From Actinomycetota bacterium (GTDB lineage Bacteria > Actinomycetota > Acidimicrobiia > Acidimicrobiales > JAJPHE01): a stretch of DNA of 50,767 bases. Positions 28,108-44,294 of the stretch are shown here, piece after piece. Under the pieces are notes generated by a model that saw only the letters and a program-made list of their open reading frames with translations, did not search any database and was not told the origin of the DNA. Both the position numbers and the translations under genes were made by a program. The DNA is taken from contig JAJPHE010000127.1 of assembly GCA_021325435.1 (NCBI GenBank), positions 1 through 50,767 of the forward strand, written 5' to 3'. Each line of letters starts with the position of its first letter. Position 1 is the stretch's first letter.

Positions 28108-28821
28108 ATGTTGCGCCGGCTCTCGCCCGGCCAAGCCGGCTATCCAACCCCGCTGGCCGCCATCTCCTCGCCGCCCGACCCACTGTGGCTGCGGGGAGCC
28201 GAGCCGAAGTGGCCGGCGGTGGCGGTGGTCGGCACCCGCCGCCCCGACGCCGAGGGCCGACGAGTCGCATCGGTGATCGCCACGACCCTCGCCGCCCGGG
28301 GGATCGCGGTGGTGTCAGGGCTGGCGCCGGGCATCGACACCGCCGCCCACCGCGCCGCCCTCCGGGCCGGCGGCCGCACCTGGGCGGTGGTGGGCTGCGG
28401 CGCCGACATGGCCGAGTCGGTGGAGGACCCTGACCTGCCGGAGGACATGGTGGGCGCCGGCGGCATCCTGGCCGAGCTTCCTCCCGGCCAGCCGGCGTCG
28501 GCCCGGGCCCTGGTGGCGCGGGACCGGATCCAGACGGCCCTGTCGGCGGCGACGGTCGTCGTGCAGACCGACCTCGCCTCCGGCACCATGCACACCGCCC
28601 GCTTCGCCCTGGTGCAGGGCAGGCCCCTGGCCGTGGTCGCCCCCGGGGCCGGTCCCCGCTGGGCGGGCAACGCCGCCCTGGTCGATCCGGCCGGCTGCGA
28701 CCCGGCCGCCCTCCACGCCCGGGGGGAGGCGGGCCGGCTGGTGCAGGCCCGCCGGCCGGTGGCCGACGTCGTGCTGGACGGAGGCGACGTCGCCCCGCTG
28801 CTGGCCCGCCTGGGGCTCTAG
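28108..28821 (+). CDS. Short DprA/Smf-like protein
   Basis: The protein is 237 aa. It has the DprA Rossmann core: VAVVGTRRPDAEGRR, VVSGLAPGIDTAAHRAAL, TWAVVGCGAD, then RDRIQTALSAATVVVQTD and SGTMHTARFALVQGRPLAVV. In DprA this domain binds single-stranded DNA and loads RecA. The SAM-like N-terminal and winged-helix C-terminal domains of full DprA are missing. It starts 10 bases after the GH15 stop, an odd operon partner. A nucleotide-binding or LOG-like role is possible. Confidence 0.75.
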   Translation: MLRRLSPGQAGYPTPLAAISSPPDPLWLRGAEPKWPAVAVVGTRRPDAEGRRVASVIATTLAARGIAVVSGLAPGIDTAAHRAALRAGGRTWAVVGCGADMAESVEDPDLPEDMVGAGGILAELPPGQPASARALVARDRIQTALSAATVVVQTDLASGTMHTARFALVQGRPLAVVAPGAGPRWAGNAALVDPAGCDPAALHARGEAGRLVQARRPVADVVLDGGDVAPLLARLGL

Positions 28822-30185: not shown

Positions 30186-30208
30186 CCCCTTGGCGCCGAC
30201 CGCCGCGC

Positions 30209-31645
30209 TCAACCCCGGACCCCGACTCTGATACCCCGGAAGCGGGCGGGAACGGCGGGGTGCCCGGTGTGGCCGATCTGCATGGGCTGGCCCTTGCCGC
30301 AGTTGGGCGTGCCCCAGAAGACCCACTCCGACTCGTTGCCGACCATGTCCATCGATCCCCAGAACCTCGGGCTGATGCCGGTGTAGGTGGGGTTGCGGAC
30401 CATGCGGCCGAGGCGTCCGCCCTTGATCTCCCATCCGATCTCGCACCCGAACTGGAAGTTGAGCCGGCGGTCGTCGATCGACCATGACCGGTTGGTGTCC
30501 ATGAACACCCCGTCGTCCGTGGCCCCGATCATCTCCTCGAGCGAGTTGCCACCGGGCAGCATGCCGATGTTCGTCATGCGCACCATGGGCAGCCGGTCGT
30601 AGCCGTCGCAGCGGACCATGCCGCCGGCCGGGACCCCGGCCAGGGCGGCGGAGTCTCGCCCGGAAAGCACCCCGACCCAGATGCCGTCGCGCACGATGTC
30701 CACCGAGGCCGCCGGGGTTCCCTCGTCGTCGTAGCCGAACGAGCCCAGCGCCCCCGGCAGGGTGGCGTCGGCCGTCACGTTCATGAGCTCGGAGCCGAAC
30801 CGCAACGCGCCGAGCTGGGAAAGGTCGAGCCACGAGGTGCCGGCGAAGGCGGCCTCCCAACCGAGGATCCGGTCCAGCTCGACGGCGTGGCCGACCGACT
30901 CGTGGATCTGCAGCGCCATCTGCTCGGAGCCGAGGACGAGATCGGTCGTGCCCTCCGGACAGGGCGGCGCCGACAGCAGCGCCACCGCCTCCTCGCCGAC
31001 CCGCCCGGCGTTGCCGGCCAGGTCGATCTGGCGCACCAGCTCCCAGCCCCGGGTGCCGTACTGGCCCCGCACCCCGGGGTACGAACGGCGCTGGGTCTCG
31101 CTGTCGCCTACGGCCGTGGCCGACATCTCCGCCCCGCACTCGCGGATGCGCTGCGACACCCGGTGACCCTCGCTCGACACCAGCCACTTCTCGTTGTCCC
31201 ACACCCGGCACGAGGCCCGGGTGATCGACGCCCCGGCCCCGGCCATGGTGCGGGTCACCTCGACCAGCAGGTCGGCCTTCTCGGACAGGGGAACCGAGAG
31301 CGGGTCCTCCTCACAGGGGCTCTCCCAGTGGCCCACGGCCGGCTCGACGGGAGCCAGCGCCAGCGGAGGTCCGGGCACCCGGGCCGAAGCCCGGGCGGTC
31401 TCGGCGGCCCGCTCCCCGGCCCGCCTGGCACCGCCGTCGTCGAGGTCGGCCACAGCGAAGAAGCCCCACGACGAGCCGATCAGGGCCCGCACCCCCAGGC
31501 CGGCGGACTCGGACTGCGCCACCCCTTCGACGTCGCCGTTCTGGGCGGACAGGCCCTGGGTGCGGCCGATGATCACCCGAGCGTCGGCGTAGCCGGCGCC
31601 GGCGGCCAGGGCCGCCTCCACTGCCGCTTCGGCGTAGCCGAACAC
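30209..31645 (-). CDS. tldD: TldD family metalloprotease
   Basis: The protein is 478 aa. The zinc motif is QIHESVGHAVELD (HESVGH 248-253), with the downstream ligand Cys expected in the C-terminal half (GCEIGWEIKGG). Other family elements are IIGRTQGLSAQNGDVE at the start and DDEGTPA. TldD with TldE degrades unfolded peptides and matures some ribosomal peptides such as microcin B17. No precursor peptide was seen nearby. ATG-type start at 31645 faces the divergent HbhA-like gene. Confidence 0.92.
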   Translation of the reverse strand: MFGYAEAAVEAALAAGAGYADARVIIGRTQGLSAQNGDVEGVAQSESAGLGVRALIGSSWGFFAVADLDDGGARRAGERAAETARASARVPGPPLALAPVEPAVGHWESPCEEDPLSVPLSEKADLLVEVTRTMAGAGASITRASCRVWDNEKWLVSSEGHRVSQRIRECGAEMSATAVGDSETQRRSYPGVRGQYGTRGWELVRQIDLAGNAGRVGEEAVALLSAPPCPEGTTDLVLGSEQMALQIHESVGHAVELDRILGWEAAFAGTSWLDLSQLGALRFGSELMNVTADATLPGALGSFGYDDEGTPAASVDIVRDGIWVGVLSGRDSAALAGVPAGGMVRCDGYDRLPMVRMTNIGMLPGGNSLEEMIGATDDGVFMDTNRSWSIDDRRLNFQFGCEIGWEIKGGRLGRMVRNPTYTGISPRFWGSMDMVGNESEWVFWGTPNCGKGQPMQIGHTGHPAVPARFRGIRVGVRG

Positions 31646-31717
31646 GGCGGGCGACAGTAATCGGGCGCCGGACGGCGACGTCCTCCCGCCCTATGACGAG
31701 AGTCACGGAATCCGTTC

Positions 31718-31747
31718 TTGACTTGAACAGCGGATGCTTGAAATACT
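31718..31747 (+). promoter_or_regulatory. Probable sigma-70-type promoter of the HbhA-like gene
   Basis: TTGACT (31718-31723) is followed after 18 bases by AATACT (31742-31747). Transcription would start near 31754, leaving about 97 bases of leader. CTTGAA occurs twice within it (31722-31727 region and 31737-31742), possibly a site for the XRE regulator encoded downstream. Confidence 0.5.
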
Positions 31748-31850
31748 TAGCATGGGTCTTCCGAAGAGCGCATCCCCCCGGGGACGCCCAGCCGGGCGCT
31801 CGACCAGCGCCGGGCGCGCCAGACAAGTACGCCGACAAGAGGAGAGACAA

Positions 31851-32165
31851 ATGAGCATCACCGACATCGCCGACACGGTTCAGGATCAGGTGTTCGAGGC
31901 AGTCAAGGCCGCCCAGGACGCGGTGGTCGAGGCCGTCCGCAACCTGGCCGACACGGTGGAGCGGCTCGTGCCCGAAGGCGGCCGGGCCACGGTGGCCGAG
32001 CGGCTTCCGGACACCGGCAAGATCGTGGACCGGGCCTTCGGCTTCGCCGAAAGGCTGCTCGAGGCCCAGCACGAGTTCGTATCGCGCCTCGTCGAGGCGG
32101 CGGCCCCCGCCCGCCCGGCCGGCACCACCACCACGGCCACGACCCGCAAGGCCACCGCCGCCTAG
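31851..32165 (+). CDS. HbhA/phasin-like amphipathic helical protein
   Basis: The protein is 104 aa. Residues 1-80 form long amphipathic helices (QDQVFEAVKAAQDAVVEAV, AERLLEAQHEFVSRLVEAA), and the tail is a Pro/Ala/Thr stretch ending TTTTATTRKATAA. The pattern recalls mycobacterial HbhA and phasins, which coat surfaces or storage granules. ATG 31851 has a clear GAGGAGAGACAA ribosome site; an earlier in-frame start at 31734 would lie over the promoter. The XRE gene follows after 22 bases. Confidence 0.6.
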   Translation: MSITDIADTVQDQVFEAVKAAQDAVVEAVRNLADTVERLVPEGGRATVAERLPDTGKIVDRAFGFAERLLEAQHEFVSRLVEAAAPARPAGTTTTATTRKATAA

Positions 32166-32187
32166 CGGTGACGGCCCGGGCCCGCTG

Positions 32188-32571
32188 ATGCCGGAGCCGT
32201 GGCAGTCACAGGTGGAGGCGCTGGGGCGGTTCATCCGCTCCCAGCGCCGCCTGGCCAATCTCAGCCTGCGCGAGCTGGCCGAGCTCACCAATGTGTCAAA
32301 CCCTTATCTGAGCCAGATCGAGCGGGGCCTCCACGAGCCGTCCGTGCGGGTGCTCCGGTCGATCGCCCGGGCCCTCAACGTGTCGGCCGAGACCCTGCTG
32401 GCCCAGGCCGGGCTGCTCGAGGACCCGCCCCCGGAGGAGGCCGACATGGACGTGGCCGGCCCGACGACCGAGCAGGCGATCCGGTCCGACCGCTTCCTCA
32501 GCGACGCCCAGAAGGAGGCGCTGCTGGCCGTGTACCGCAGCTACCGGGCGGCAGGGCCCACGCCGGGTTGA
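32188..32571 (+). CDS. XRE family regulator (Rv0474-like)
   Basis: The protein is 127 aa. The helix-turn-helix is RLANLSLRELAELTNVSNPYL followed by SQIERGLHEPSVRVLRSIAR, shown here in two pieces. The C-terminal half (AEADMDVAGPTT region, then SDAQKEALLAVYRSYRAA) matches the actinobacterial regulator found next to hbhA in mycobacteria (Rv0474, from memory). It probably controls the gene before it. Its last 74 bases overlap the convergent membrane-hydrolase gene. Confidence 0.85.
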   Translation: MPEPWQSQVEALGRFIRSQRRLANLSLRELAELTNVSNPYLSQIERGLHEPSVRVLRSIARALNVSAETLLAQAGLLEDPPPEEADMDVAGPTTEQAIRSDRFLSDAQKEALLAVYRSYRAAGPTPG

Positions 32572-34213
32572 CCGACAGGGCCAGCTCCGGCACCTGCCAC
32601 GCCGTCGCCGCCCCCCGCAGGGCGCGGTCGAAGCGCGACCAACCGCCCGGGTGGGGAACCGGGTTCCCCTCCAGCAGCGAGATCACCACCTGATCGACGG
32701 AGGGATCGCCGAGCGTGCCCGAGTGGAAGGCCGGAACCACGACCGTCGGGGGCCCGAGCGAACCGACGATCGGCGAGGCCACCGCGTCGGCGAGCGGGAG
32801 GATGGCGACGAGCCGCACGGTGGGCGGCGGGCAGGACAGCGCCGTCTGCAACATCGGCGCGTCGCGCTCGATCGAGGCGAACAACGGCGTGCCCGGCGAC
32901 ACCTGGAACGGGCCGAGCGACCCGAGGGCGTTGGTGATGGCCCGCAGCCCGAGGCCGCTCACCATGCCCCACCCGGCGGTGCCGGGAGGCGGGTAGTACA
33001 CCCGGCCCGGGCGCACGATCGGCGACAGCAGCACGACGTGGTCGACCGGCGCGTCGGTCCACCCGGCCAGGTACACCTCGGTGACCAAAGACGCCTCGCT
33101 CGCCGCCACTATGTCGACCCGCCGGTGGGTTCGGTTCGCCAACGCGTCGACCTGGGCAGCCATGGCCGCCGCCGACTGCTCCAGTGAGGCGTCGGTGTCC
33201 TGCGGCCCGTAGGGCAGCGGCTGCCCGGCGGGGTCGAGACCGCGATAGGAGAAGCGGGTCTCGTCGAAGGGTCCGGCCAGCCACGGCCCCGAACGCCCGT
33301 CCCACTTGGTGCCGAACCCGGAGGCCACCATCAGCGGCGGCCCGTGTGAGGGGGGCGCCACCGGAGCGGCGGCCGCCTTCTCGCCCGCGGCGTGCACCCG
33401 GGCGGTGGTGATGCCGAATCCGAGGGCGGTGCCCCCGACCACCACACCAACGATGGCGGCCAAGCCGGCGGGGGCCACGGGGCGGAACCGGTTCGACCGG
33501 AAGGGGGAGGCGACCGCCGACACCATGCCCCTCCACGCCCATGCGTTGAACAGGCCGCAGAGGGCGGCGACGGGCAGGCCGAGGACGCGCCGGTCGTAGG
33601 AGACGACGCCGGCGGCGAGGGTCATCACCCCGAAGGTGAGAGCGACCCAGCCGACCGCCCGCAGAGGAACGGTGCGACGCCACCATCCCGGGCTCACGGC
33701 GCCGGGGTGGATCAGCATCGCCACCCACACCACCGGGGGGACGGCCGCGAAGAACAGCCACGACAAAGACACCACCGACAGGCCGAACAGCAGCAGCACC
33801 CACGGGGCGATCACCACCACGGCCAGGCCGGTGAAGATCAGCGTGCGGCGCAGGGCGGCGAGGAAGCTCGGCGCAACGGCGTCCTCCGGCCAGGCCAGGC
33901 GGATGATGCCGGCGTCGAGCACGCTGCGGAAGCCGAGGAGCAGCGCCATCTCCCACCCAAAGCTGAACCATGACCGGTGGTAGACGACCAGCCAGCGCAG
34001 GTCGTGGAAGACGCCGAAGGGAGCGACAGCCGACACCTGGGGGGCCAGCCCCGCCGCCCACGACGCGCCGATCCCCGCCAGGATCGAGGCCTCGGCCACG
34101 CTGGTGAGCACGCACAGGCTGACCAGCGGGAGCTTCGATCGCAGGAGGGGCTGGGCCCGCACCCGCACCCTCGCCGTGGCGGGCGTCGGGTGCGCCCGGG
34201 TGGCGGTGGGCAC
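32498..34213 (-). CDS. Multi-pass membrane protein with an outside alpha/beta-hydrolase-like domain
   Basis: The protein is 571 aa. About six to seven hydrophobic segments fill residues 25-275, the last being AIVGVVVGGTALGFGIT. Residues about 290-571 look like a serine hydrolase: nucleophile region VDIVAASEASLVTEVY, an Asp in AILPLADAVASP, and a His in VVPAFHSGTLGDPSV. The elbow is ASEAS, not the usual GxSxG. I do not recognise the whole protein. GTG 34213 is 9 bases after the coupling-ATPase stop, so it reads as the last gene of the secretion operon. Confidence 0.6.
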   Translation of the reverse strand: MPTATRAHPTPATARVRVRAQPLLRSKLPLVSLCVLTSVAEASILAGIGASWAAGLAPQVSAVAPFGVFHDLRWLVVYHRSWFSFGWEMALLLGFRSVLDAGIIRLAWPEDAVAPSFLAALRRTLIFTGLAVVVIAPWVLLLFGLSVVSLSWLFFAAVPPVVWVAMLIHPGAVSPGWWRRTVPLRAVGWVALTFGVMTLAAGVVSYDRRVLGLPVAALCGLFNAWAWRGMVSAVASPFRSNRFRPVAPAGLAAIVGVVVGGTALGFGITTARVHAAGEKAAAAPVAPPSHGPPLMVASGFGTKWDGRSGPWLAGPFDETRFSYRGLDPAGQPLPYGPQDTDASLEQSAAAMAAQVDALANRTHRRVDIVAASEASLVTEVYLAGWTDAPVDHVVLLSPIVRPGRVYYPPPGTAGWGMVSGLGLRAITNALGSLGPFQVSPGTPLFASIERDAPMLQTALSCPPPTVRLVAILPLADAVASPIVGSLGPPTVVVPAFHSGTLGDPSVDQVVISLLEGNPVPHPGGWSRFDRALRGAATAWQVPELALSVNPAWALPPGSCGTRPAAPPSGRR

Positions 34214-34222
34214 GACCGAAGG

Positions 34223-35890
34223 CTACCCAGGGTCCACCCGGCGCGACCACAGGTCGCGGTCCTCGAACCAGGGTCGCAGCTCCAGGCGGGCCGGGGGCAG
34301 GTGGCCGTAGAGCAGCAGACCGTGCCCGGGCGGGATGCGCCGCAGGGCGTCGGCGGGGGCCAGCGGCCGGGTCGCCAACGACTCGGTGGTGGACAGCGCT
34401 CCGCCCGAGTCCTTGGTCACCGAGGAGGACGCCTCCTGGCCGTCGCCGACGAGGCCACTCAGCTGCTGCAACGTCACCGGGTCCGACACCCCCGACAGGA
34501 GGACCTTGGCCCGGTGGTTGTTGACCACCGAGGCGGCCCGAGCCCCGTAGCGGGCGGTGATCTGGGCCAGGTCCTGCCACACCGTCACCAGCTGGATCCC
34601 CTGACCGGCGCCGGTGGCGGCCAGCCCGTCGAGGTCCTCCAGCGGAGCGATCGAGGCCGCCTCGTCGAGCACCATGAGCAAGGGTGGGTCGAGGGCCCTG
34701 CCGGCGGAGTGGCGCTCGTACACGGCCGCCACGACCTGCTCGACCAGCGAGGTGAACAGCGGCCGGAGCCGGCGCTGCTCGTGCGACGGGGCGCACAGGT
34801 AGAGCGTGTGGGCGCCCCCGTCCAACAGGACGGCGGGGTCGATGCCGGGGCCGGCCGCGGCGGCGACCGCCGGATCGGCGAAAGGGTCGAGCACCGTCTC
34901 GGCGGTGGTGAAGACGGAGCTGCGCTGGCGGTCCTCGCGCCGCCAGCTGGCCTCGGCGGCGAGGATGGCCTGCTCGACGCCGGCCATGGCCAGGGCGGCG
35001 GCGGGCTCGTTGGTGTCCTGGCTGTCGACCCAGCGAACCACGTCGGACATGTCGCGCCCGGAGACCGCCGCCGCGAACAGCAGGGGCGCCAGCAGCTTGG
35101 CCGCGGTGGCATACCAGAACTCGGCGTCGGACGGACCGCCGGTCGACGAGCGGGCCGCTCCCACCATGGCCGCGGCCGTCCGGCGGGCGCCGGCCCAGGT
35201 GCCGGAGGCCGCCAGGGGCGACCAGCTGTCGGAGGGCAGCCCGGTGCAGCAGGTGGGGTCGTAGACCCAGACCTCACCGCACCGGCGCCGCCAGCCGATG
35301 GTGTCGCGCACCAGGTCCGTCTTCACGCTGGTGGCGAGGACGGGGCCGTCCCACTCGAGGATGGCCGGCACGGCAAAGCCGGTGGTCTTCATGGTCTGGG
35401 TCGGGCCCACGACCAACACCGACTGGCGGGGCTCGGCGGCGAGGAGACGCCGCCCGGACCGCCCGAGGACGAGGCGACCGTCGCCCGGCCGGCGCACGGC
35501 CAGGGCAGCAAGGTCGCGCCGTGACGCCCACCGGGCGGCTTCCGCGGCCCGGCCCACACCGGTCGCCAGCACGAAGCGCCACGGCCGTCGCCTGGTGGGA
35601 GCGGGCCGGGCGCCAGGTGGCGCGACCCGCCGACGTCGGATGGCCCGGCCGGCCGCCACGACCGCGGCGGCGGACAGCGCCAGGAGGGGGGCCAGCACCG
35701 GCCACCGCGGCTCCGCCAAGGAGGTGACCGTCCGTTCCCACCCGTGGGCGGCCAGGCCGGCGCGCCGGGCGAGCAGCACGGCGAGGGCGGCGGCCATGGC
35801 CAGCTCCTCGGTCTTCCAACCACCGCCGGCCGGGCGCCGACCGGCGCCACCGGCCCGCGGACCGGTCGGGTGGAACTGTCGGCGTCTCAT
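34223..35890 (-). CDS. VirD4/TraG-type coupling ATPase
   Basis: The protein is about 555 aa. After two N-terminal hydrophobic stretches (about 30-45 and 63-82) come Walker A VVGPTQTMKTTGFAVPAIL (GPTQTMKT 162-169) and Walker B LLMVLDEAASIAPLE. VTVWQDLAQITARYG is the TraG/VirD4 motif III region. Coupling proteins carry substrates to the type IV secretion channel. The Walker A has Met where Gly is usual. ATG 35890 overlaps the VirB4-like stop as ATGA. Confidence 0.88.
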   Translation of the reverse strand: MRRRQFHPTGPRAGGAGRRPAGGGWKTEELAMAAALAVLLARRAGLAAHGWERTVTSLAEPRWPVLAPLLALSAAAVVAAGRAIRRRRVAPPGARPAPTRRRPWRFVLATGVGRAAEAARWASRRDLAALAVRRPGDGRLVLGRSGRRLLAAEPRQSVLVVGPTQTMKTTGFAVPAILEWDGPVLATSVKTDLVRDTIGWRRRCGEVWVYDPTCCTGLPSDSWSPLAASGTWAGARRTAAAMVGAARSSTGGPSDAEFWYATAAKLLAPLLFAAAVSGRDMSDVVRWVDSQDTNEPAAALAMAGVEQAILAAEASWRREDRQRSSVFTTAETVLDPFADPAVAAAAGPGIDPAVLLDGGAHTLYLCAPSHEQRRLRPLFTSLVEQVVAAVYERHSAGRALDPPLLMVLDEAASIAPLEDLDGLAATGAGQGIQLVTVWQDLAQITARYGARAASVVNNHRAKVLLSGVSDPVTLQQLSGLVGDGQEASSSVTKDSGGALSTTESLATRPLAPADALRRIPPGHGLLLYGHLPPARLELRPWFEDRDLWSRRVDPG

Positions 35891-37140
35891 GCGCCGGTCA
35901 TGCGAGCGTCGGTGTCGACGATCGCCGCCTCGGCCTCGGAGAGCCGGTGCTCCACGAGGAACGAGCGCGGCCCCACCTTCCACAGCGCCACTCCGCGTCG
36001 TAGCCGTGAGAGCAGCTGCGCCTCTGCGTCTGACAGGCCGAGCAGGGGACGGCACGCCTCGGACTCGGCGGGCGACTGGGCGTACACGATCCGGGTCTCG
36101 GAGTCGGCCAGCAGCCCCTCGGCCAACAGGGCTTGCTCAGAGCCCGAGGGCCCGGCCGCTCGCAGGTCGGACAGCCGGTGGAGGACGGCCAGGTTGGCGA
36201 CACCCAGAGCCCGCGACAGCTTCCACGCGCTGCGCAGCCAACGGGCCACCCCTACGTCGGAGAGGATCGCCCACGCCTCGTCGACGACGAGGAGTCGGGG
36301 ATGGTCCCCCGAGCGTTCGAGGGCGGTCTGCACCCAGGCGGTGGCGCAGGTCATGAGCAGGCCCAGCGCCGGTGAGGTGTACACGGCGGAAAGGTCGATG
36401 ACGAGGAGCGAGGCGTCGAGTCGCAGCTGGGACGACGTGGGGCCGTCGAACATCCCCCGCAGGTCTCCCGACACCAGCCGGCGCAGCTCGAGGGCGACAT
36501 CGCGCCCGTCTGCCGCCAAGCCGTCGGTTGTGGTTCCCAGTTCGGCGGCGGGGCCCGGTGCGGGCGCCAGCAAGGCCTCCACCACCTGGGGCAACAGTGG
36601 GGCCCGGCCGGGCTGACGAGCCTCGGCCGCGGAGAGGGCCACGTCGAGGGCGGCCCGCTCGGCTGGGCGCAGCGGGCGGCCGAGCGACGACTCGGCCAGG
36701 GAGCCGAGCAGCGTCACCCGTCGGCGGGTCAGCTCGGGGCGGCCGCCATCGACCAGAGCCGGCGGGGGCCCGTCGAGCGGGTTGAGCCGCAGTCGTCCCC
36801 CGGGGGACAGGCGAAGCGGCTTGACCCCCCACGCCGCCGCCAGCGGGCCGTACTCGCCCTTCGGGTCCACCACCCACGCCTGGGCCCCGAACAGGGACAT
36901 CCGCCACAGGAGGGACTTGACCAGGGCGCTCTTGCCCCGGCCGATCTGGCCGAGGACCACGGCGTTGGGATTGGTCAGTGCTCCGCACGCGTACAGCCGG
37001 AAGGGGTCGTAACAGAACGCCCCACCGAGCAGATCACGGCCGATGTAGGGCGCCGGGCACGGCAGGGGCGGCTCGGCCACGAAGGGGAACAGGGCGCCGA
37101 CGTGAGCGGTGGTCGCCCGGTGGGCGGGCGGGGACCTCAC
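35887..37140 (-). CDS. VirB4/TraC-like secretion ATPase
   Basis: The protein is about 417 aa. It begins PFVAEPPLP, contains YDPFRLYACGALTNPNAVVLG followed by Walker A GQIGRGKSALVKS (64-76), DPKGEYGPLA, and Walker B HPRLLVVDEAWAIL, then VLHRLSDLRAAG. It covers only the ATPase half of a normal VirB4 (about 800 aa); the N-terminal half is probably supplied by the SCO6880-like gene before it. GTG 37140 overlaps that gene's stop as GTGA. Confidence 0.85.
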   Translation of the reverse strand: MRSPPAHRATTAHVGALFPFVAEPPLPCPAPYIGRDLLGGAFCYDPFRLYACGALTNPNAVVLGQIGRGKSALVKSLLWRMSLFGAQAWVVDPKGEYGPLAAAWGVKPLRLSPGGRLRLNPLDGPPPALVDGGRPELTRRRVTLLGSLAESSLGRPLRPAERAALDVALSAAEARQPGRAPLLPQVVEALLAPAPGPAAELGTTTDGLAADGRDVALELRRLVSGDLRGMFDGPTSSQLRLDASLLVIDLSAVYTSPALGLLMTCATAWVQTALERSGDHPRLLVVDEAWAILSDVGVARWLRSAWKLSRALGVANLAVLHRLSDLRAAGPSGSEQALLAEGLLADSETRIVYAQSPAESEACRPLLGLSDAEAQLLSRLRRGVALWKVGPRSFLVEHRLSEAEAAIVDTDARMTGA

Positions 37141-38576
37141 CCCAATCCCCGCCCCATGGGCAACGTGTAGGCGAAGGCCGCGTCCTGCTGCCCGTAGAGG
37201 CGGCGGAGCTGCAGGCGGGCCTGGCCGGCCGCATGCTCCACCTCGGAACAACAGGACTCGAGCTGTTCGATCCCCGGGGCCGAGACGGTGACGTACCCGG
37301 AGAAGCGGTAGTCGGCGTGCCCGTCGGCCAGCTCGACCTCGCGGTCGGCGATGCCTGACTGCTGGCGCTGGCGCCGGGCGGTGGCAAGGAAGCCGCCCCT
37401 GCGACGGAGCTCGTCGTCGGCGACGCCGGCGGTGCGGGCCGCCTCGACCTCGCGGGTCGCCCGCCTCGGTGGGACCGGCTCGAGGATGGCGGCCACGGTG
37501 CGCACTCCGGACCCGAGGAGCAGCAACGGCGTGAGGAAGTCCGGTCCCACGTCGGCACGGGGCCACTCCGCCACCCAGTAGGTGACGTGCCACCACGCGT
37601 CGGTGCGCAGCCAGCCCCACGACGCCTCGGTGGCCGACGGCCACGGCGACCGGTACTGATGGCGCGAGCGACCGAAGCCGACGGCCATGGCGGCCCCCAG
37701 AGCCGTCGGGCCGAGCGGCCCGTCGACGGCTATGCCCGCGCCCCGGAGGTTGGACTCGAGGGTCAGCAGCTCGCGCTCCAGGCCGACCGGCTCGGTGGCG
37801 TCGCGGCACTGGCGGCTCCGCCGGTGTCGCGGCCTTCGGACGGTGAGGCCGACGAGGACCTCGTGGACGGGCGCGTCCGAGCCCTCGCGGCGGACCAGCT
37901 CGGCGTAGGAGCTGGCACCGGCACCATCGGCGCGCGGCAGCTCGAGCACGACCTCCTCGCTCGGCGGCAGGACCCGTTCGATCCACTGGATGCGGTGTAC
38001 CGGCGAGCCGTCTCGGGCCAGACCGGCCAGCACCGCCGCCCACCCCCCGACCCGCTGGTCCTTCTCCGTCCGGTCGAGCAGGGCGAATCCGCCACCCCTG
38101 ACCGACAGGACCGCCGTGGCCGTGCCCGAGCTGCGGTCGTCCACCACCCCGATCGCTCGCTGAGTCGAAGGGTCGAAGACCTCGCCCAGCCGGCAGCCCG
38201 ACATCAGGCGGGGCGGGCGGACCTGCTCGCCTCCAGAGCTCTCTCGCCGGACCGGGTAGATGCCCAGCGAAGCGGCGTCGGTGACCCACCGGCGGCGGGC
38301 CGTCCCCCTCAGAGCTGCCCAGCGGATCACCACCGGCACCCACTCGTCGACACCACGACCACCCACGCTCACCAGGGCGCCGGCGACTCCGGCGACCAGC
38401 AACGTGGCGGCGGCCACCGTGCCCGGTCCGGACGGGGCCAACCGCAGGACCAGCACCGCCCCGACCAGGCCGACACCCACCGACGCCACTTGACCGGTGG
38501 TCAGCCCGGCCACCATGCCCCTGCGCTCCAGCGGCCCGAACCGGTAGGTCCGGTTCGGGCCTTCGGTCTCAGGCAT
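37137..38576 (-). CDS. SCO6880-like T4SS protein (VirB3/PrgI-like plus VirB4 N-domain-like)
   Basis: The protein is about 479 aa. Two N-terminal helices (about 24-42 and 52-69) recall PrgI/VirB3. The rest is soluble with no Walker motif, and carries ALLDRTEKDQRVGGWAAVL and a C-terminal LESCCSEVEHAAGQARLQL. It resembles the SCO6880 family of Streptomyces chromosomes and conjugative elements (from memory). It probably docks the VirB4 ATPase to the membrane. ATG 38576 overlaps the TrbL-like gene by 8 bases; a GTG at 38579 is the alternative. Confidence 0.75.
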   Translation of the reverse strand: MPETEGPNRTYRFGPLERRGMVAGLTTGQVASVGVGLVGAVLVLRLAPSGPGTVAAATLLVAGVAGALVSVGGRGVDEWVPVVIRWAALRGTARRRWVTDAASLGIYPVRRESSGGEQVRPPRLMSGCRLGEVFDPSTQRAIGVVDDRSSGTATAVLSVRGGGFALLDRTEKDQRVGGWAAVLAGLARDGSPVHRIQWIERVLPPSEEVVLELPRADGAGASSYAELVRREGSDAPVHEVLVGLTVRRPRHRRSRQCRDATEPVGLERELLTLESNLRGAGIAVDGPLGPTALGAAMAVGFGRSRHQYRSPWPSATEASWGWLRTDAWWHVTYWVAEWPRADVGPDFLTPLLLLGSGVRTVAAILEPVPPRRATREVEAARTAGVADDELRRRGGFLATARRQRQQSGIADREVELADGHADYRFSGYVTVSAPGIEQLESCCSEVEHAAGQARLQLRRLYGQQDAAFAYTLPMGRGLG

Positions 38577-39684
38577 CACCGGATGGGGGGCGAGGGTCGG
38601 GGCCGGCCACTCCGGAGTCGGAGTCGGTGTCGGTCGGGCGTCGGCCGTGCATGGCGGCGAGGAGATCGTCGACGCCCCCGGAGACATCACCGGCGCGGTA
38701 CTTGATGCTCTCGCCGGCGGCGGCGGCGCCGGTCGGGCCGGACGGCGAAGCACCCGCTCCTGCCCTCGCCAACAGCCACTGGGCGCCCCCGACCGTCGAC
38801 GACGGGGCCGCCACCGCCCGGCGGCTCAGGCCCTCGAGATGGGACGCCACACCGACCTCGGCGATCGGGATCAGCCGAAGCAGGGCGTAGGGAGCGAAGG
38901 TGGCCAAGAGCAGGAGAGCGACCCCGCCGATCACCGAGGCGAACCCGGCGCCGCTGCCGAGGGCTCCGACGGCCAGGCCCAGGGTGGCCACCACCACCAG
39001 CTTCGACAGCACCAGGGCAGCGATGACCTCGGCCAGGCGCCGGGCCCAGCGCGACAGCGCCGGCCAGGTCAAGGTGGCCAGCGCCAAGGGGAGGAACAAA
39101 ACCGCCACGTAGATGGCGGCCGCCCGGAGCACCAGCTCCAGCCACAGCATGAGCCCCCCGGCGGCCACGATCAGGGCCACGATGAAGGAAACGAACACCG
39201 GGACGGCAGGATCTCCGCCGCCTGCCGCGGCCACCGTGGCCAGTCCCTTGCCGAGATTGGCCAGAACGCCCGGGCCGGGGTGACCGGCGTCAAGGACGGC
39301 CGCGCACATCGAGTCGACCACGGCGAGCGACAGCTGGACCACCTGGACGGCCACAACCGTCAACACCACAGCCAACGGAAGCTGAACGGCCACCGCCCGC
39401 ACCATGAGCGACGGCTCCTGCCGGACCACGGCGTGGATGACGCACAGAAGCAGCAGGGGCAGGACCGTGGCCGCCGCCACTGCCACCATGGCCCGGTAGT
39501 GCTCGGCGAACCAGCGGGCGTCGAGGCGGGGGGTCGTCGACGACTGGACCAGCGAGCCCACCTGGCCCACCAGCCACACGGCTCCGTCGGAGACCCACTT
39601 GGCCACCCCACTCAGGAGCTGGCTGATGCCGAAGGAGGCCAGGCCCCCGGTCACCGCCCCCACGCCGGGCGGGCCGACGCTCAA
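38569..39684 (-). CDS. TrbL/VirB6-like polytopic membrane protein
   Basis: The protein is 371 aa with about seven transmembrane segments between residues 60 and 265, including MLWLELVLRAAAIYVAVLFLPL, the typical TrbL/VirB6 core (quoted as two adjoining parts, MLWLELVLRAAAIY and VAVLFLPLALATLTW). The C-terminal 90 residues are a disordered Ala/Gly/Pro/Asp tail. VirB6 proteins line the inner-membrane channel. The start is TTG 39684 in a TTGA overlap with the pilin-like gene. Confidence 0.75.
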   Translation of the reverse strand: MSVGPPGVGAVTGGLASFGISQLLSGVAKWVSDGAVWLVGQVGSLVQSSTTPRLDARWFAEHYRAMVAVAAATVLPLLLLCVIHAVVRQEPSLMVRAVAVQLPLAVVLTVVAVQVVQLSLAVVDSMCAAVLDAGHPGPGVLANLGKGLATVAAAGGGDPAVPVFVSFIVALIVAAGGLMLWLELVLRAAAIYVAVLFLPLALATLTWPALSRWARRLAEVIAALVLSKLVVVATLGLAVGALGSGAGFASVIGGVALLLLATFAPYALLRLIPIAEVGVASHLEGLSRRAVAAPSSTVGGAQWLLARAGAGASPSGPTGAAAAGESIKYRAGDVSGGVDDLLAAMHGRRPTDTDSDSGVAGPDPRPPSGDA

Positions 39685-39962
39685 CTGCCGTGGCCGAGCT
39701 TGAAGAAGGTGTTGACGATCAACGGGGCCGCCCCGACCAGGAGGGCGGCCAGCCCCGACACGACCACCGCCCGCCGGCCGGCGATGGACTGCTGATAGTT
39801 CTGCGAGTGGGAGCCGAGGGCCCAGGCCGCCGCCCCGACCAGCAGCCCGATCAACGCCAGCATCAGGGCCCAGCCAGCGATTCCGTCGGTCAGCTTCTGC
39901 AGCAGCGCTCCGCCGGGCAGAGCGTTCGTCGCCATCGGGTTCACGGTGACGTCAGCGAGCAT
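39681..39962 (-). CDS. Small two-helix pilin-like protein (VirB2/TrbC-like, DUF6112-type)
   Basis: The protein is 93 aa with two hydrophobic helices (GWALMLALIGLLVGAAAWAL and AVVVSGLAALLVGAAPLIV) separated by a short polar loop, SHSQNYQQSIAGRR. That is the VirB2/TrbC pilin layout. It has no long signal peptide. It is the first gene of the operon: ATG 39962 is preceded by GGAGGAGGAGAAG, an unusually strong ribosome site that would give it high expression, as expected for a pilin. Confidence 0.65.
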   Translation of the reverse strand: MLADVTVNPMATNALPGGALLQKLTDGIAGWALMLALIGLLVGAAAWALGSHSQNYQQSIAGRRAVVVSGLAALLVGAAPLIVNTFFKLGHGS

Positions 39963-40016
39963 CTCTTCTTCTCCTCCTCCGGGCTCTGGCCCGGGTCCTC
40001 TCTCGTACCCGTGGTC

Positions 40017-40045
40017 ACCTTACTGTCTCTTTCGTGTTATTTCAA
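40017..40045 (-). promoter_or_regulatory. Promoter of the type IV secretion-like operon
   Basis: On the minus strand TTGAAA (40045-40040) and TAAGGT (40022-40017) are separated by exactly 17 bases, in an AT-rich patch that stands out in this genome. The transcript would start near 40010, about 48 bases before the pilin-like ATG. Confidence 0.6.
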
Positions 40046-40062
40046 TATGTTTCATTGTCTGT

Positions 40063-40081
40063 CGGTGGGAGGGTCCCACCG
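40063..40081. promoter_or_regulatory. Perfect palindrome upstream of the sensor-kinase gene
   Basis: CGGTGGGA and TCCCACCG are perfect eight-base arms around GGG. It lies 30 bases before the kinase start and 18 bases beyond the -35 of the divergent secretion operon. It could be an operator shared by both or an RNA hairpin in the kinase leader. Confidence 0.45.
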
Positions 40082-40111
40082 GAAGGCGGTAGGCGGGCAC
40101 AGAGTGGTGAC

Positions 40112-41566
40112 ATGACGACGCCGCTGCCCAGCTCAGCCGAGGTCCCCTATGTCGCCGGCGCCGCCTGCTCGGCGGCATTAGCAGTGGCCTCCCTCGTCTA
40201 CGCCTTCCGAGAGCGCAGAAGCCTCCGCCGCCGGATCGGCTCTCTGATCGTGCGGCTCTCCGAGGCCTCGGCTACCCCGGAGGGCGGCCTCGAGTCCCTG
40301 CTCTCCCAGCTGGAACGGGCGTCTGACTCCGCCCTCGAGCGATCGGCTGACGCCGAGGGGGCGGTGGCGAGGATGGCCGGTGCTCTCGACGAGCTCGACG
40401 CCGGCGTCCTGGTGACCGACGAGGCCGGCCGCCTCGTTTTCCGCAACCTGCGGGCGGCGGCCATGCTCGCTGGCGGCCGCGAGGGCGACGCCATCGTCGG
40501 CCGCGCCGTGGTCGAGGCCCTGGCCAACGTCGGAGAGGGGACGCCGGTCGAGCGGTACGTCGACCTCTACGGGCCGCCCCGTCGCAACGTCGTCGTCCGG
40601 GCCACCACGCTCGACGACGGGCGCCGACCGCTGGGCGCCGCCGCCGTGGTCGAGGACCTGACCCGGCTGCGCCGCCTGGAGGAGTCGGGCCGCGACCTGG
40701 TCGCCAACGCCGCCGAGCGGCTCCAGTCCCCGGTCGCCGCCCTGGTCGGGGTGGCCGAGCTTCTGGCGGAGGAGGCGGACCCGGCGGTGACGGGTCGAGT
40801 GGCGCCGCACCTCGCCCACCACGCTGGCCGCATCGCCGAGGCGGTGCAGGACCTCGTCGAGCTGGGGCGAGCCGACCTCGAAGCGAGGCCAGCCCGGGCG
40901 GCCACGGCCGTGTCGACGATCGTCACCGACGCCGTCGCCCTGGCCGCTCCGGTGGCCGAGGCCCGGTCGGTCCGCCTGCACCTGGACCACCTCGACCCCG
41001 CCCTGTTCGTGGTGGCCGATCGGCGCCAGCTGGTGGCCGCCCTGTTCAATGTGGTGGAGAACGCCATCAAGTGGTCCTCCGCCGGCCAGCCCGTCCGCGT
41101 CCGGGCCGTAAGTGCCGGGCGCGACGTGGAGATGGTTGTCCAGGACGAAGGCATCGGCATACCGGGGCGCGATGTCGAACGGGTCTTCGAGCGATTCTTC
41201 CGCGGCGGCGCGGTCACCGACCCCCGCCACGGCGCCGGCCTCGGGCTGTCCATCACCCGCCAGGTGGCGGAGAACCACGGCGGCAGCGTGCTGGTGCACT
41301 CCCGCGAAGGCGAGGGGTCCACCTTCGTGCTTCGCCTGCCGCTGTCCCCTGAGGTTCTCGTCACGCCGACACCGGCGGTTCCGGCTCTGCTCGGCCGGAT
41401 CACGTCTGTCGGTGGTCCGGCCGAGGACCCGGGCGCCGACGCCGATACCGGCGAGATCATCGTCGTCAACGACACCAGTGCCGCGCCCGAGGTCACTCCG
41501 GCGCCGGAGGACCCCTACCTCAGCGGGCCGCCCACCAACGGGGTCGGCCTGCCGGCCGGCGTCTGA
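40112..41566 (+). CDS. SenX3-like sensor kinase homologue lacking the phospho-acceptor His
   Basis: The protein is about 484 aa: one N-terminal transmembrane helix, a PAS-like domain (about 90-180; LDELDAGVLVTDEAGRLVF), a HisKA-like helix, and an intact HATPase (NVVENAIKWS, DEGIGIP, FERFFRGG, GAGLGLSITRQV). In the HisKA-like helix the expected SHELKTP is AERLQSP, with E202 where His should be. ATP binding is kept but normal autophosphorylation is not possible. A 60-residue acidic tail follows. No response regulator gene is adjacent; fur follows after 22 bases. Confidence 0.85.
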   Translation: MTTPLPSSAEVPYVAGAACSAALAVASLVYAFRERRSLRRRIGSLIVRLSEASATPEGGLESLLSQLERASDSALERSADAEGAVARMAGALDELDAGVLVTDEAGRLVFRNLRAAAMLAGGREGDAIVGRAVVEALANVGEGTPVERYVDLYGPPRRNVVVRATTLDDGRRPLGAAAVVEDLTRLRRLEESGRDLVANAAERLQSPVAALVGVAELLAEEADPAVTGRVAPHLAHHAGRIAEAVQDLVELGRADLEARPARAATAVSTIVTDAVALAAPVAEARSVRLHLDHLDPALFVVADRRQLVAALFNVVENAIKWSSAGQPVRVRAVSAGRDVEMVVQDEGIGIPGRDVERVFERFFRGGAVTDPRHGAGLGLSITRQVAENHGGSVLVHSREGEGSTFVLRLPLSPEVLVTPTPAVPALLGRITSVGGPAEDPGADADTGEIIVVNDTSAAPEVTPAPEDPYLSGPPTNGVGLPAGV

Positions 41567-41588
41567 CCGGGCTTAGGCTCGGGCGTCG

Positions 41589-42014
41589 ATGGACGCGGCG
41601 CGGGTCGCCAGGTTGATTGCCGAGCTCCGGTCTCGGGGCGCCCGCGTCACCGGCGCCCGCCGCGCCCTCCTTCAAGCCATGGTGGACGCCGATGGTCACG
41701 TGACCGCCGAGGACATCGCTCGCCGGGTCGAGGCGGCCCATCCTGACGTGCACCTCTCCACCATCTACCGCACCCTGGACGCCCTGGAGAACCTGGGCCT
41801 CGTCGACCACGTTCACCTGGGCCACGGCCGGGCCGTCTACCACCTCTCCGACGACCCCCATCAGCACCTGGTGTGCGAACAGTGCGGCGCGGTCGTCGAG
41901 GTGCCCGACGCCACCTTCGCCCAGCTGAAGGCTTCGCTCCTGGAGGATTACGGCTTCGCCATCCGGCCCAACCACTTCGCCGTCATCGGGCGCTGCGCCG
42001 CCTGCACGACGTGA
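41589..42014 (+). CDS. Fur family metal-responsive regulator
   Basis: The protein is 141 aa. The winged helix includes ARVTGARRALLQAMV and DVHLSTIYRTLDALENLG. The dimer/metal domain has DDPHQHLVCEQCG with the HxH and CxxC ligands, and CAAC at the C-terminus for the structural zinc. It could be Fur, Zur or a peroxide sensor; the ligand set does not decide. ATG 41589 follows the kinase homologue by 22 bases. Confidence 0.9.
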   Translation: MDAARVARLIAELRSRGARVTGARRALLQAMVDADGHVTAEDIARRVEAAHPDVHLSTIYRTLDALENLGLVDHVHLGHGRAVYHLSDDPHQHLVCEQCGAVVEVPDATFAQLKASLLEDYGFAIRPNHFAVIGRCAACTT

Positions 42015-42030
42015 GGTCGGCGCCGACCTC
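42013..42030. terminator. Perfect palindrome between convergent fur and serS
   Basis: GAGGTCGGCGCCGACCTC is an 18-base perfect palindrome that begins inside the fur stop codon and ends 4 bases before the serS stop. As RNA it makes a seven-pair stem with a GCGC loop on either strand. It is well placed as a bidirectional terminator, although the T run after it is weak. Confidence 0.6.
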
Positions 42031-42033
42031 TGT

Positions 42034-43359
42034 CTAGCGCCGGTACTGCTTGTTGGGGCCGATCTCCTCCGCGCCGCCGAGGTAGGGGCGGAGTCGCACA
42101 GGCACGGCCACGCTCCCGTCCGGCTTGCGGTGGGTCTCCACGATCGTCGCCCAAACTCGCGGCCAGGCCAACGCCGAACCGTTGAGGGTATGCACGAAGG
42201 CGGTGCCGGATCCTCCGGTGGGGCGGTAGCGCACATTGGCCCGCCGGGCCTGATAGTCGCTGAACCATGACACCGAGGACACCTCCAGCCACTGGCCGCT
42301 GCCGGGGGCGTAGGCCTCGAGGTCGAATGTCCGGGCTGAGGACTGACCGAGGTCGCCGGCGCACAGGTCGACCACCCGGTAGGTCAGCTCGAGCTCCTGC
42401 AGCAGCGCCTCGGCCCGGGCCAGCAGGTCGGCGTGGACGCCGGGCGCCTGATCGGGCGTGCAGTAGGCGAGGATCTCGACTTTGTCGAACTCGTGCACCC
42501 GCAGCAGGCCACGGGTGTCACGTCCGGCCGAGCCGGCCTCGCGCCGGTAGCACGGGGTGGCGGCGGTCATGCGCACGGGCAGGTCGGCCTCGACCAGGAT
42601 CTCGTCGCGCCCGAGTGAGGTGAGGGGAACCTCGGCCGTCGGTATCGCCCACAGGTCGTCGCGCTCGAGGTGATAGGCGTCGTCCTCGAACTTGGGCAGG
42701 TGGCCGGTCGAGACCATCGTCTCGGTGCGGACCAGGGACGGTGGCCGGATCTCCTCGAAAGCCTCCCCGTGGTGGTCAAGGGCGAAGTTGGTCAGGGCCC
42801 GGATTAGCGCTGCCCCCATGCCCCGGTAGACGGGGAACATCGTCCCCGAGAGCTTCGCCCCCCGCTCGAGGTCGAGGATGCCGAGTTCGGCTCCGACATC
42901 CCAGTGCGGTATCCGCTGGTGGTCGGGGTGGGCCGGCGACCCGTCGGGGCCCCACTCCAGTCCCGGCGCGGTCCAGGTCCGCACCACGACGTTCTCCTCG
43001 GCCGAGTCACCGTCCGGGGCGTCGCCGTCGGGGATGTTGGGGATGCCGAGTAACGAGGCGCGCAACTCACCGGCCACCGAGTCGATGTCGGCGGCCACGG
43101 CGCGCTCCTCCTCACCCAGGGCGCGACTCTCCGTTGCGGCGGCGTCGGCCGCTCCCTGATCTCCGGCCCGGCGGGCCTGGGCCACCGACTGGGAGAGGGA
43201 CTTCACCCGGGCGCGAATGTCGTCACGGCGCTGCGACAGCTGACGGTGGCGCTCGTCCAGCTGCGCCACCCGATCCAGCTCCGTCGGGTCTACGCCACGG
43301 CGGGTGAGCGCGGCCTTCACCCCGTCGAGGTCGCTGCGTACCCGGCGGATGTCGATCAT
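42034..43359 (-). CDS. serS: Seryl-tRNA synthetase
   Basis: The protein is 441 aa, normal for SerS. The N-terminal coiled coil that grips tRNA-Ser is residues about 30-105 (LDERHRQLSQRRDDIRARV). The class II core has motif 1 IRPPSLVRTETMVSTG, motif 2 TPCYRREAGSAGRDTRGLLR with the ATP-binding Arg, and motif 3 LNGSALAWPRVWATIVE. It charges tRNA-Ser with serine. It is monocistronic, divergent from the ABC exporter genes. Confidence 0.97.
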   Translation of the reverse strand: MIDIRRVRSDLDGVKAALTRRGVDPTELDRVAQLDERHRQLSQRRDDIRARVKSLSQSVAQARRAGDQGAADAAATESRALGEEERAVAADIDSVAGELRASLLGIPNIPDGDAPDGDSAEENVVVRTWTAPGLEWGPDGSPAHPDHQRIPHWDVGAELGILDLERGAKLSGTMFPVYRGMGAALIRALTNFALDHHGEAFEEIRPPSLVRTETMVSTGHLPKFEDDAYHLERDDLWAIPTAEVPLTSLGRDEILVEADLPVRMTAATPCYRREAGSAGRDTRGLLRVHEFDKVEILAYCTPDQAPGVHADLLARAEALLQELELTYRVVDLCAGDLGQSSARTFDLEAYAPGSGQWLEVSSVSWFSDYQARRANVRYRPTGGSGTAFVHTLNGSALAWPRVWATIVETHRKPDGSVAVPVRLRPYLGGAEEIGPNKQYRR

Positions 43360-43385: not shown

Positions 43386-44294
43386 GTGCCAGCCATCGAG
43401 GTGAATGAGCTGGTCGTCCGCTACGGCGAGGTAACGGCAGTAGACCGTCTGTCCGTGTCGGCCGAGGCGGGCGAGATCCTCGCTCTGCTGGGACCGAACG
43501 GAGCGGGGAAGACGACCACGGTCGAGACCCTCGAGGGCTACCGCCGCCCGGCAGAGGGGGAGGTTCGGGTCCTCGGCCTCGATCCGGTTGCCCAACGCCG
43601 CCAACTCGTCCCCCGCATCGGAGTGATGCTGCAGCGCGGCGGCGTCTACCCCTCGATGACCCCTCGCCGGGCGGCAGCCCTGTTCGCCTCCTACTACGCC
43701 GACCCCGTCGACCCTGCCGAGCTGCTGGCCCAGGTCGGGCTCGAGCGGGTGGCCGACACGTCGTGGCGGCGACTGTCGGGCGGGGAGCAGCAAAGGCTGT
43801 CGCTGGCCCTGGCCCTGGTGGGCCGGCCGCAGGTGGCGTTCCTCGACGAGCCCACCGCCGGGGTGGACCCGGCCGGCCGATTGGCGATCCGCGCCGTGGT
43901 GGCGGGGCTGCGCGACCGCGGGGTGTGCGTGGTGCTGACCACCCACGAGCTGGAGGAGGCGGAGCGCCTCGCCGACCGCATAGTGATCATCGACCGGGGC
44001 CGGACGGTCGGCGCCGGCACGCCGGCCGAGTTGATGGCCACGGCGGGCGGCCGCCAGATTCGTTTCGGCGCCCCGGCCGGCATGGACGTGGCTGCCCTCG
44101 GCCGGGCCATGGCCGCGGCGGTGGTGGAAGAGAGGCCCGGTGAATACGTGATCGACAAGGAGGCGACCCCCGCCGCCATCGCCGCCCTGACCGCATGGTT
44201 GGCCGAGCGCGACCTCCCCCTGGCCGACCTGCGGGCCGGGCGGCACTCGCTGGAGGACGTCTTCCTGCGGCTGACCGGATCGGGCGGTTCGTGA
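43386..44294 (+). CDS. ABC transporter ATP-binding protein
   Basis: The protein is 302 aa. Walker A is LLGPNGAGKTTTVE, signature LSGGEQQRLSLALA, Walker B VAFLDEPTAGVDP and the H-loop LTTHELEEAE. The C-terminal 80 residues are the extension common in DrrA-like exporters. It powers the permease encoded next. The same pair sits near ctaA/ctaB in other actinobacteria, so a role in heme or oxidase assembly is conceivable. The stop overlaps the permease start by GTGA. Confidence 0.92.
   Translation: MPAIEVNELVVRYGEVTAVDRLSVSAEAGEILALLGPNGAGKTTTVETLEGYRRPAEGEVRVLGLDPVAQRRQLVPRIGVMLQRGGVYPSMTPRRAAALFASYYADPVDPAELLAQVGLERVADTSWRRLSGGEQQRLSLALALVGRPQVAFLDEPTAGVDPAGRLAIRAVVAGLRDRGVCVVLTTHELEEAERLADRIVIIDRGRTVGAGTPAELMATAGGRQIRFGAPAGMDVAALGRAMAAAVVEERPGEYVIDKEATPAAIAALTAWLAERDLPLADLRAGRHSLEDVFLRLTGSGGS

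Follow-up and report, generated by a model that had tools for sequence, protein, structure and literature searches.

The window analysed here is the whole 50,767-nucleotide stretch of contig JAJPHE010000127.1 (C41) from a bacterium of the order Acidimicrobiales. It carries a compact type IV secretion system (T4SS) operon, which we consider likely to be the channel module of a vertically inherited, chromosomally resident conjugation-type machine split over two loci, the other locus encoding a candidate partner relaxase in trans. Since channel and relaxase each occupy a fixed chromosomal place and share a rare control sequence, these soil and water bacteria probably pass on DNA of their own rather than that of a plasmid.

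The block consists of six minus-strand genes, whose coordinates and tight overlaps are exactly as described in the first-pass annotation of the window:

39681-39962, minus strand: VirB2-like pilin (DUF6112/T4SS_pilin-like; PF19607, E=1e-5; PF18895, E=0.012), first gene of the operon
38569-39684, minus strand: SCO6881-family VirB6/TrbL-like polytopic channel protein (NF047967, E=6e-12)
37137-38576, minus strand: SCO6880-family protein with hydrophobic N-terminal helices and a VirB4 N-terminal domain (VirB4N; NF042935, E=1.5e-76)
35887-37140, minus strand: VirB4 C-terminal ATPase (VirB4C; NF045971 positions 413-728; TIGR00929; PDB 4ag5, E=3e-24)
34223-35890, minus strand: VirD4/TraG-like coupling ATPase (PF02534, E=1.3e-36; PF12696, E=7e-22)
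32498-34213, minus strand: membrane protein with a C-terminal half judged hydrolase-like in the first pass (no Pfam or NCBIfam match)

From the pilin onward, successive genes meet at TTGA, over 8 shared bases, at GTGA and at ATGA, and 9 bases separate the VirD4 gene from the membrane hydrolase gene. The proteins are intact, and the GC content of the block (74.3%) is similar to that of the flanks. Profile searches bore out the earlier naming of pilin, VirB6-like, SCO6880, VirB4 and VirD4 proteins, with the SCO6880 protein now assigned to VirB4 as its N-terminal half and the hydrolase set aside as no conserved part. Of the parts of a VirB4/VirD4 T4SS, the system has a VirB4 ATPase with intact motor motifs and a VirD4 protein matching PF02534 and PF12696. 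The VirB6 and VirB2-type pilin identities come from low-scoring family matches, and a predicted model of the VirB6-like protein (pLDDT 75) matched TrwI/VirB6 chains in Foldseek with a probability of at most 0.98 and an E no better than 0.08. The pilin is the first gene in nearly all syntenic loci of relatives. The membrane hydrolase gene was found in 22 of 298 genomes of the order. Family f1, to which the window belongs, is the only one where it adjoins the T4SS; elsewhere it is unlinked, and it was rejected as a sixth component on that ground. A DprA gene lies at 28108-28821 of the window, about 4-6 kb from the block.

VirB4 appears to be divided between two of these genes. The longest open reading frame (ORF) at the VirB4 position is spuriously long, the true gene encoding only the C-terminal half with the motor domain, in which Walker A (GQIGRGKS) and Walker B (DEAW) are invariant or nearly so in 14 homologues. 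The C-terminal end of SCO6880 weakly matches positions 314-363 of the VirB4 model NF045971, just ahead of the VirB4C portion. Its predicted model (pLDDT 84) gave a Foldseek E of 2e-9 to the N-terminal domain of TrwK/VirB4, and a VIA Z of 24 over about 320 residues against TrwK/VirB4 residues about 9-383. Since SCO6880 continues the VirB4 profile and resembles the VirB4 N-terminus structurally, VirB4 would be split into two overlapping genes, and SCO6880, as modelled, is the N-terminal half otherwise missing from the VirB4 gene. VIA-align gave no better reading of SCO6880 as something other than VirB4, with ESX-3 chains scoring lower (Z 17.4). The model also matches the ESX-3 core chains 6umm_A (Z 17.4) and 6sgz_D (Z 12.9) across helices and cytosolic domain, and the VirB4 N-domain may thus be related to a component of type VII secretion. 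TrsD, remotely homologous to the VirB4 N-terminus, is known from one MPF_FATA subclass, so the splitting of VirB4 as such is not new.

The first pass saw no relaxase in the window, and none was found among the window genes scanned, but the genome holds one elsewhere. A genome-wide search returned no MOBP/Q-type relaxase (PF03432) and four TrwC matches (PF08751), on contigs C65, C111, C52 and C53. The C65 protein (L228:6240-9191, 983 aa) combines a TrwC and an AAA_30 helicase domain and is encoded directly after two WYL regulators of the pafB-pafC type, which are DNA-damage regulators; the locus also carries a second VirD4-like coupling ATPase gene, which in several families is convergent with the relaxase gene. 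Relaxase sequences retain the double tyrosine (YY) and the histidine triad (H...DPHLHTH) and match the TrwC structure 1omh with E=6.5e-56; the C65 protein, with TrwC domain, double tyrosine motif and triad, classes as MOBF. In some families the relaxases are short, and no helicase is recognised in them. Two genomes (G091, G066) are very relaxase-rich, with 18-19 TrwC matches each.

The clade formed by the window's T4SS, termed type A, comprises about 58 of the 298 sampled genomes of the order, from 17 families (own count). TrwC was present in 57 of 58 type A carriers and in 93 of 240 other genomes of the order (Fisher 7e-19, relatedness ignored); among high-quality genomes the counts were 44/44 and 76/183 (8e-15, relatedness likewise ignored). 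Adjacency of pafC and relaxase was found in 37 of the 39 testable carriers outside family f16, the exceptions being G060 and G092, while for 40 genomes that lack type A but possess both TrwC and pafC, no relaxase among the matches listed lies within about 18 kb of pafC, as judged from coordinates only. In family f16 the relaxase gene sits beside the T4SS, divergent from the pilin gene, and retains neighbours from the relaxase address. The pair also occurs in family f61 alongside a strongly diverged T4SS, suggesting that the division into two loci may predate type A or extend beyond it. Taken from sequence, these patterns point to the MOBF/TrwC relaxase as the putative in-trans partner of the window T4SS.

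The two loci are further linked by a short element, found through k-mer enrichment upstream of the pilin gene:

40040-40055, minus strand: cis-element WTGAAANNNNWTGAAA, a conserved 10-bp direct repeat upstream of the pilin gene

A simple sigma-70 scan found no promoter for the operon, where the first pass had seen a good one, though this repeat is conserved there. (A/T)TGAAA repeated at exactly 10 bp occurs in 27 of 83 dereplicated pilin upstream regions against 0.13 in shuffles, and in none on the other strand. An exact search for WTGAAANNNNWTGAAA covered 63 genomes, 43 carriers and 20 controls. In the window's own genome (4.0 Mb) there are exactly two exact copies, C41:40040-40055 at the pilin and C65:21195-21210 at the relaxase, and this pairing recurs in G047, G028 and G008. 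Across the 43 carriers, about 24 of 50 exact copies fall at one of the two loci (own count), against 0.009 expected at random. Relaxase upstream regions scored at least 10 of 12 positions in 21 of 43 cases, against 24 of 1290 shuffles (2%); only pilin upstream regions had gone into defining the pattern, which makes its reappearance at the relaxase an independent test. Copies are also held by 8 of the 20 control genomes, and the regulon that the element serves may thus be wider. Overlapping copies occur at G016:C42:30562-30587, and the element is also seen at other sites in genomes without a type A T4SS. At the relaxase of the own genome there is a third repeat, overlapping the annotated start codon, so that the element could act as an operator, as part of a promoter or as a binding site for the relaxosome. 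OmpR-type factors bind direct repeats, and because histidine kinase and response regulator genes are conserved beside the operon, this neighbouring pair is a candidate regulator of the element. A short inverted repeat beside the window element was not conserved, by eye, in relatives.

Synteny comparison showed that the block stands beside the same genes in most sampled families. In the window these are:

40111-41566, plus strand: divergent histidine kinase (start ATG at 40111; PF02518, E=2e-25)
42034-43359, minus strand: seryl-tRNA synthetase (SerRS), conserved flank defining the address (profile match, synteny)
43386-44294, plus strand: ABC ATPase, conserved flank (profile match, synteny)

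By tblastn, the order pilin-SCO6881-SCO6880-VirB4C-VirD4 recurs next to this flank (histidine kinase, response regulator, sometimes Fur, SerRS, ABC), and the same arrangement appears in a second set of named genomes, mostly metagenome-assembled genomes of Acidimicrobiales, which shares part of its genomes with the first. In other families an OmpR-type response regulator comes after the kinase, and some have a peptidoglycan hydrolase of the SLT type ahead of it; this VirB1-like gene lies between pilin and kinase in several relatives, both of those in f1 among them. In family f32 the operon is mostly still at this address, with SerRS absent from it, and in f16 it has been relocated. Salsipaludibacter albus, of the class Nitriliruptoria outside Acidimicrobiia, has a type A operon with an SLT gene away from SerRS (L320).

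Type A is one clade apart from the type B SCO6880 systems, an example of which is the second copy in the own genome, a SCO6880/VirB4C system with an NlpC/P60 gene on contig C96 (L003). Type B systems are often relaxase-linked, lying in several genomes within roughly 10-25 kb of a TrwC relaxase, and the C96 system may, with a 1495-aa TrwC protein on C111, be part of a mobile element. Some type B loci have an unassigned ORF of about 240 aa between pilin and VirB6.

Trees were built for 41 genomes, with the T4SS represented by VirB4C and SCO6880. T4SS and relaxase trees agreed with a Spearman coefficient of 0.80, and 17 of 22 supported relaxase splits were shared. The T4SS tree recovers families f1, f16, f21, f29, f32, f34, f40 and f50, most GTDB families forming clades. 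The trees fit paired vertical inheritance with losses, perhaps with some joint transfer.

Among the window genes scanned by profile there was no relaxase, integrase, peptidoglycan hydrolase or VirB8 gene, in agreement with the first pass; no integrase appeared among the Pfam-scanned neighbours, no genome-wide integrase search having been made. Long exact direct repeats are absent from 30200-42100, where there are only GC-rich degenerate ones. The nearest full-length relative of the system on plasmids is 46% identical. A normal integrative and conjugative element (ICE) was rejected: instead of variable insertion sites and discordant phylogeny there are a fixed address and mostly recovered families, the TrwC relaxase stands at an address of its own on C65 rather than inside an element, and no integrase or attachment (att) site was seen at the locus. 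A relaxase and integrase with att repeats just outside the window, or a discordant phylogeny, either of which the first pass would have taken as the mark of a conjugative element, did not emerge. A decayed element, which it had also entertained, was rejected given the intact catalytic motifs. What stood was its suggestion of a resident secretion or DNA-transfer machine, as the system is chromosomal, with an address conserved in many families and a mostly congruent tree.

Several observations weigh against this reading. Agreement with the species marker RpoB was moderate for the T4SS (Spearman 0.58) and weak for the relaxase (0.35), so some horizontal transfer of either perhaps accompanied vertical inheritance. 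The type A system is present in only about one-fifth of the sampled genomes of the order, most matches come from fragmented assemblies, and two genomes (G201 and G259, 67% and 90% complete) have the pafC-relaxase pair with the T4SS undetected. The SLT hydrolase of close relatives is missing at the window locus, profile searches of the six operon proteins gave no VirB8-like match, and an origin of transfer (oriT) was not found. In the own genome about 5 bp separate the element from the annotated start of the relaxase downstream, which is odd for a classical activator site, and the PafBC-type promoter motif, which we take to be TGTCRGTG and variants, was not enriched upstream of pilin or relaxase. 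Transfer, nicking and expression are themselves things we infer from genes.

Were the T4SS instead to secrete proteins or DNA into the medium, by effector delivery or by release as from the gonococcal genetic island (GGI), the relaxase would be a DNA-release enzyme or one substrate. VirD4 systems can export proteins, the short helicase-less relaxases of several families suggest reduced processivity, and contact-independent GGI release is described in a T4SS review; the strict pairing and shared cis-element with a relaxase of intact catalytic motifs speak against this reading, and no conserved gene resembling an effector stood out at the locus, none having been searched for. We regard such secretion as unlikely. 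Less likely again is a developmental or chromosome-handling machine that moves no DNA between cells, modelled on Streptomyces CmdABCDEF (SCO4126-4131), a chromosomal homologue with VirB4, SCO6880- and SCO6881-like genes; losing it has effects on sporulation and chromosome segregation and none on SLP2 transfer (PMC2782261); the window system has VirD4 and a paired relaxase, and a relaxase is not described with cmd (PMC2782261).

The two loci could also be what is left of one or more ancient integrative elements, retained to help mobilisable plasmids or by chance, as the frequent TrwC linkage of type B relatives on what look like mobile elements and the further TrwC matches in the own genome (C111, C52, C53) might suggest. 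Intact genes, fixed addresses across many families, the retained cis-element and the lack of any integrase or att site seen at the window locus make this very unlikely. Least likely of all is a DNA-uptake machine of the ComB or Ced kind: in Sulfolobales, Ced imports DNA with a conjugation apparatus that has been domesticated (PMC9905601), whereas coupling ATPases and a paired relaxase serve export from a donor, and ComB works without VirD4 (T4SS review).

For a resident conjugation-type machine, the parts list and motifs argue for a donor-side role. The two loci would be switched on together, with the neighbouring histidine kinase/OmpR-type pair as candidate regulator; the relaxase would nick chromosomal or resident DNA and remain bound to the strand; and VirD4 and VirB4 would drive the complex of single-stranded DNA (ssDNA) and relaxase out through the VirB6 channel, to be received by another cell or released to the medium. 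As both halves are chromosomal, with no element to move, the cargo would most likely be the cell's own DNA, and the benefit would be exchange or repair of the own genome, not the spreading of any mobile element. In mycobacteria, PafBC is a sensor of ssDNA (PMC11804915), which, with the relaxase gene following pafBC, makes damage control attractive, but the scan showed no enrichment of the PafBC-type promoter motif. We lean, with slightly better than even confidence, towards the full form of this reading, in which a vertically inherited chromosomal conjugation apparatus works with a dedicated relaxase, the two loci sharing one control element, to exchange chromosomal DNA or export it as a bacterial counterpart of Ced/Ted, possibly tied to the PafBC ssDNA damage response.

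Bacterial conjugation is usually regarded as something that belongs to plasmids and ICEs. Conjugation domesticated for DNA transfer has been reported in archaea and stated to be unreported elsewhere (PMC9905601). If our reading is true, this would be a bacterial case of resident conjugation and, unlike Ced/Ted, one with a dedicated relaxase; a mostly uncultured group would gain a resident route of gene exchange, and T4SSs called relaxase-less may have a relaxase in trans. The idea is testable in Acidiferrimicrobium sp. IK and Salsipaludibacter albus, the named carriers that look cultured. Our literature search, with most subscription journals outside its reach, found no relaxase linked with PafC and met SCO6880 in work on the cmd cluster (PMC2782261); priority for resident bacterial conjugation is not proven.

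The system resembles Gram-positive conjugative T4SSs (MPF_FATA, MOBF/TrwC) in its pilin, VirB6, VirB4, VirD4 and relaxase with intact motifs, and in the SLT or NlpC hydrolase of relatives. It differs from MPF_FATA plasmids and ICEs in having two fixed chromosomal addresses with no integrase or att site seen at the window locus, VirB4 in two genes, no VirB8-like gene found and the relaxase in trans. Streptomyces cmdABCDEF (SCO4126-4131) and the SLP2 transfer genes (PMC2782261) share VirB4, SCO6880- and SCO6881-like proteins and, for cmd, the chromosomal operon, whereas cmd affects sporulation and chromosome segregation, with VirD4 and a relaxase partner not described there. Ced and Ted of hyperthermophilic archaea (PMC9905601) are likewise chromosomal, domesticated conjugation machineries with pilin, VirB6 and VirB4; the window system, here known from genes alone, is bacterial and has VirD4 and a dedicated relaxase, which the archaeal systems lack. 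The chromosomal T4SSs of Patescibacteria (PMC12102498) are similarly widespread, with a VirB2-like pilin and no nearby relaxase, but those clusters are mostly relaxase-less, whereas the window system has a putative relaxase in trans that shares its cis-element.

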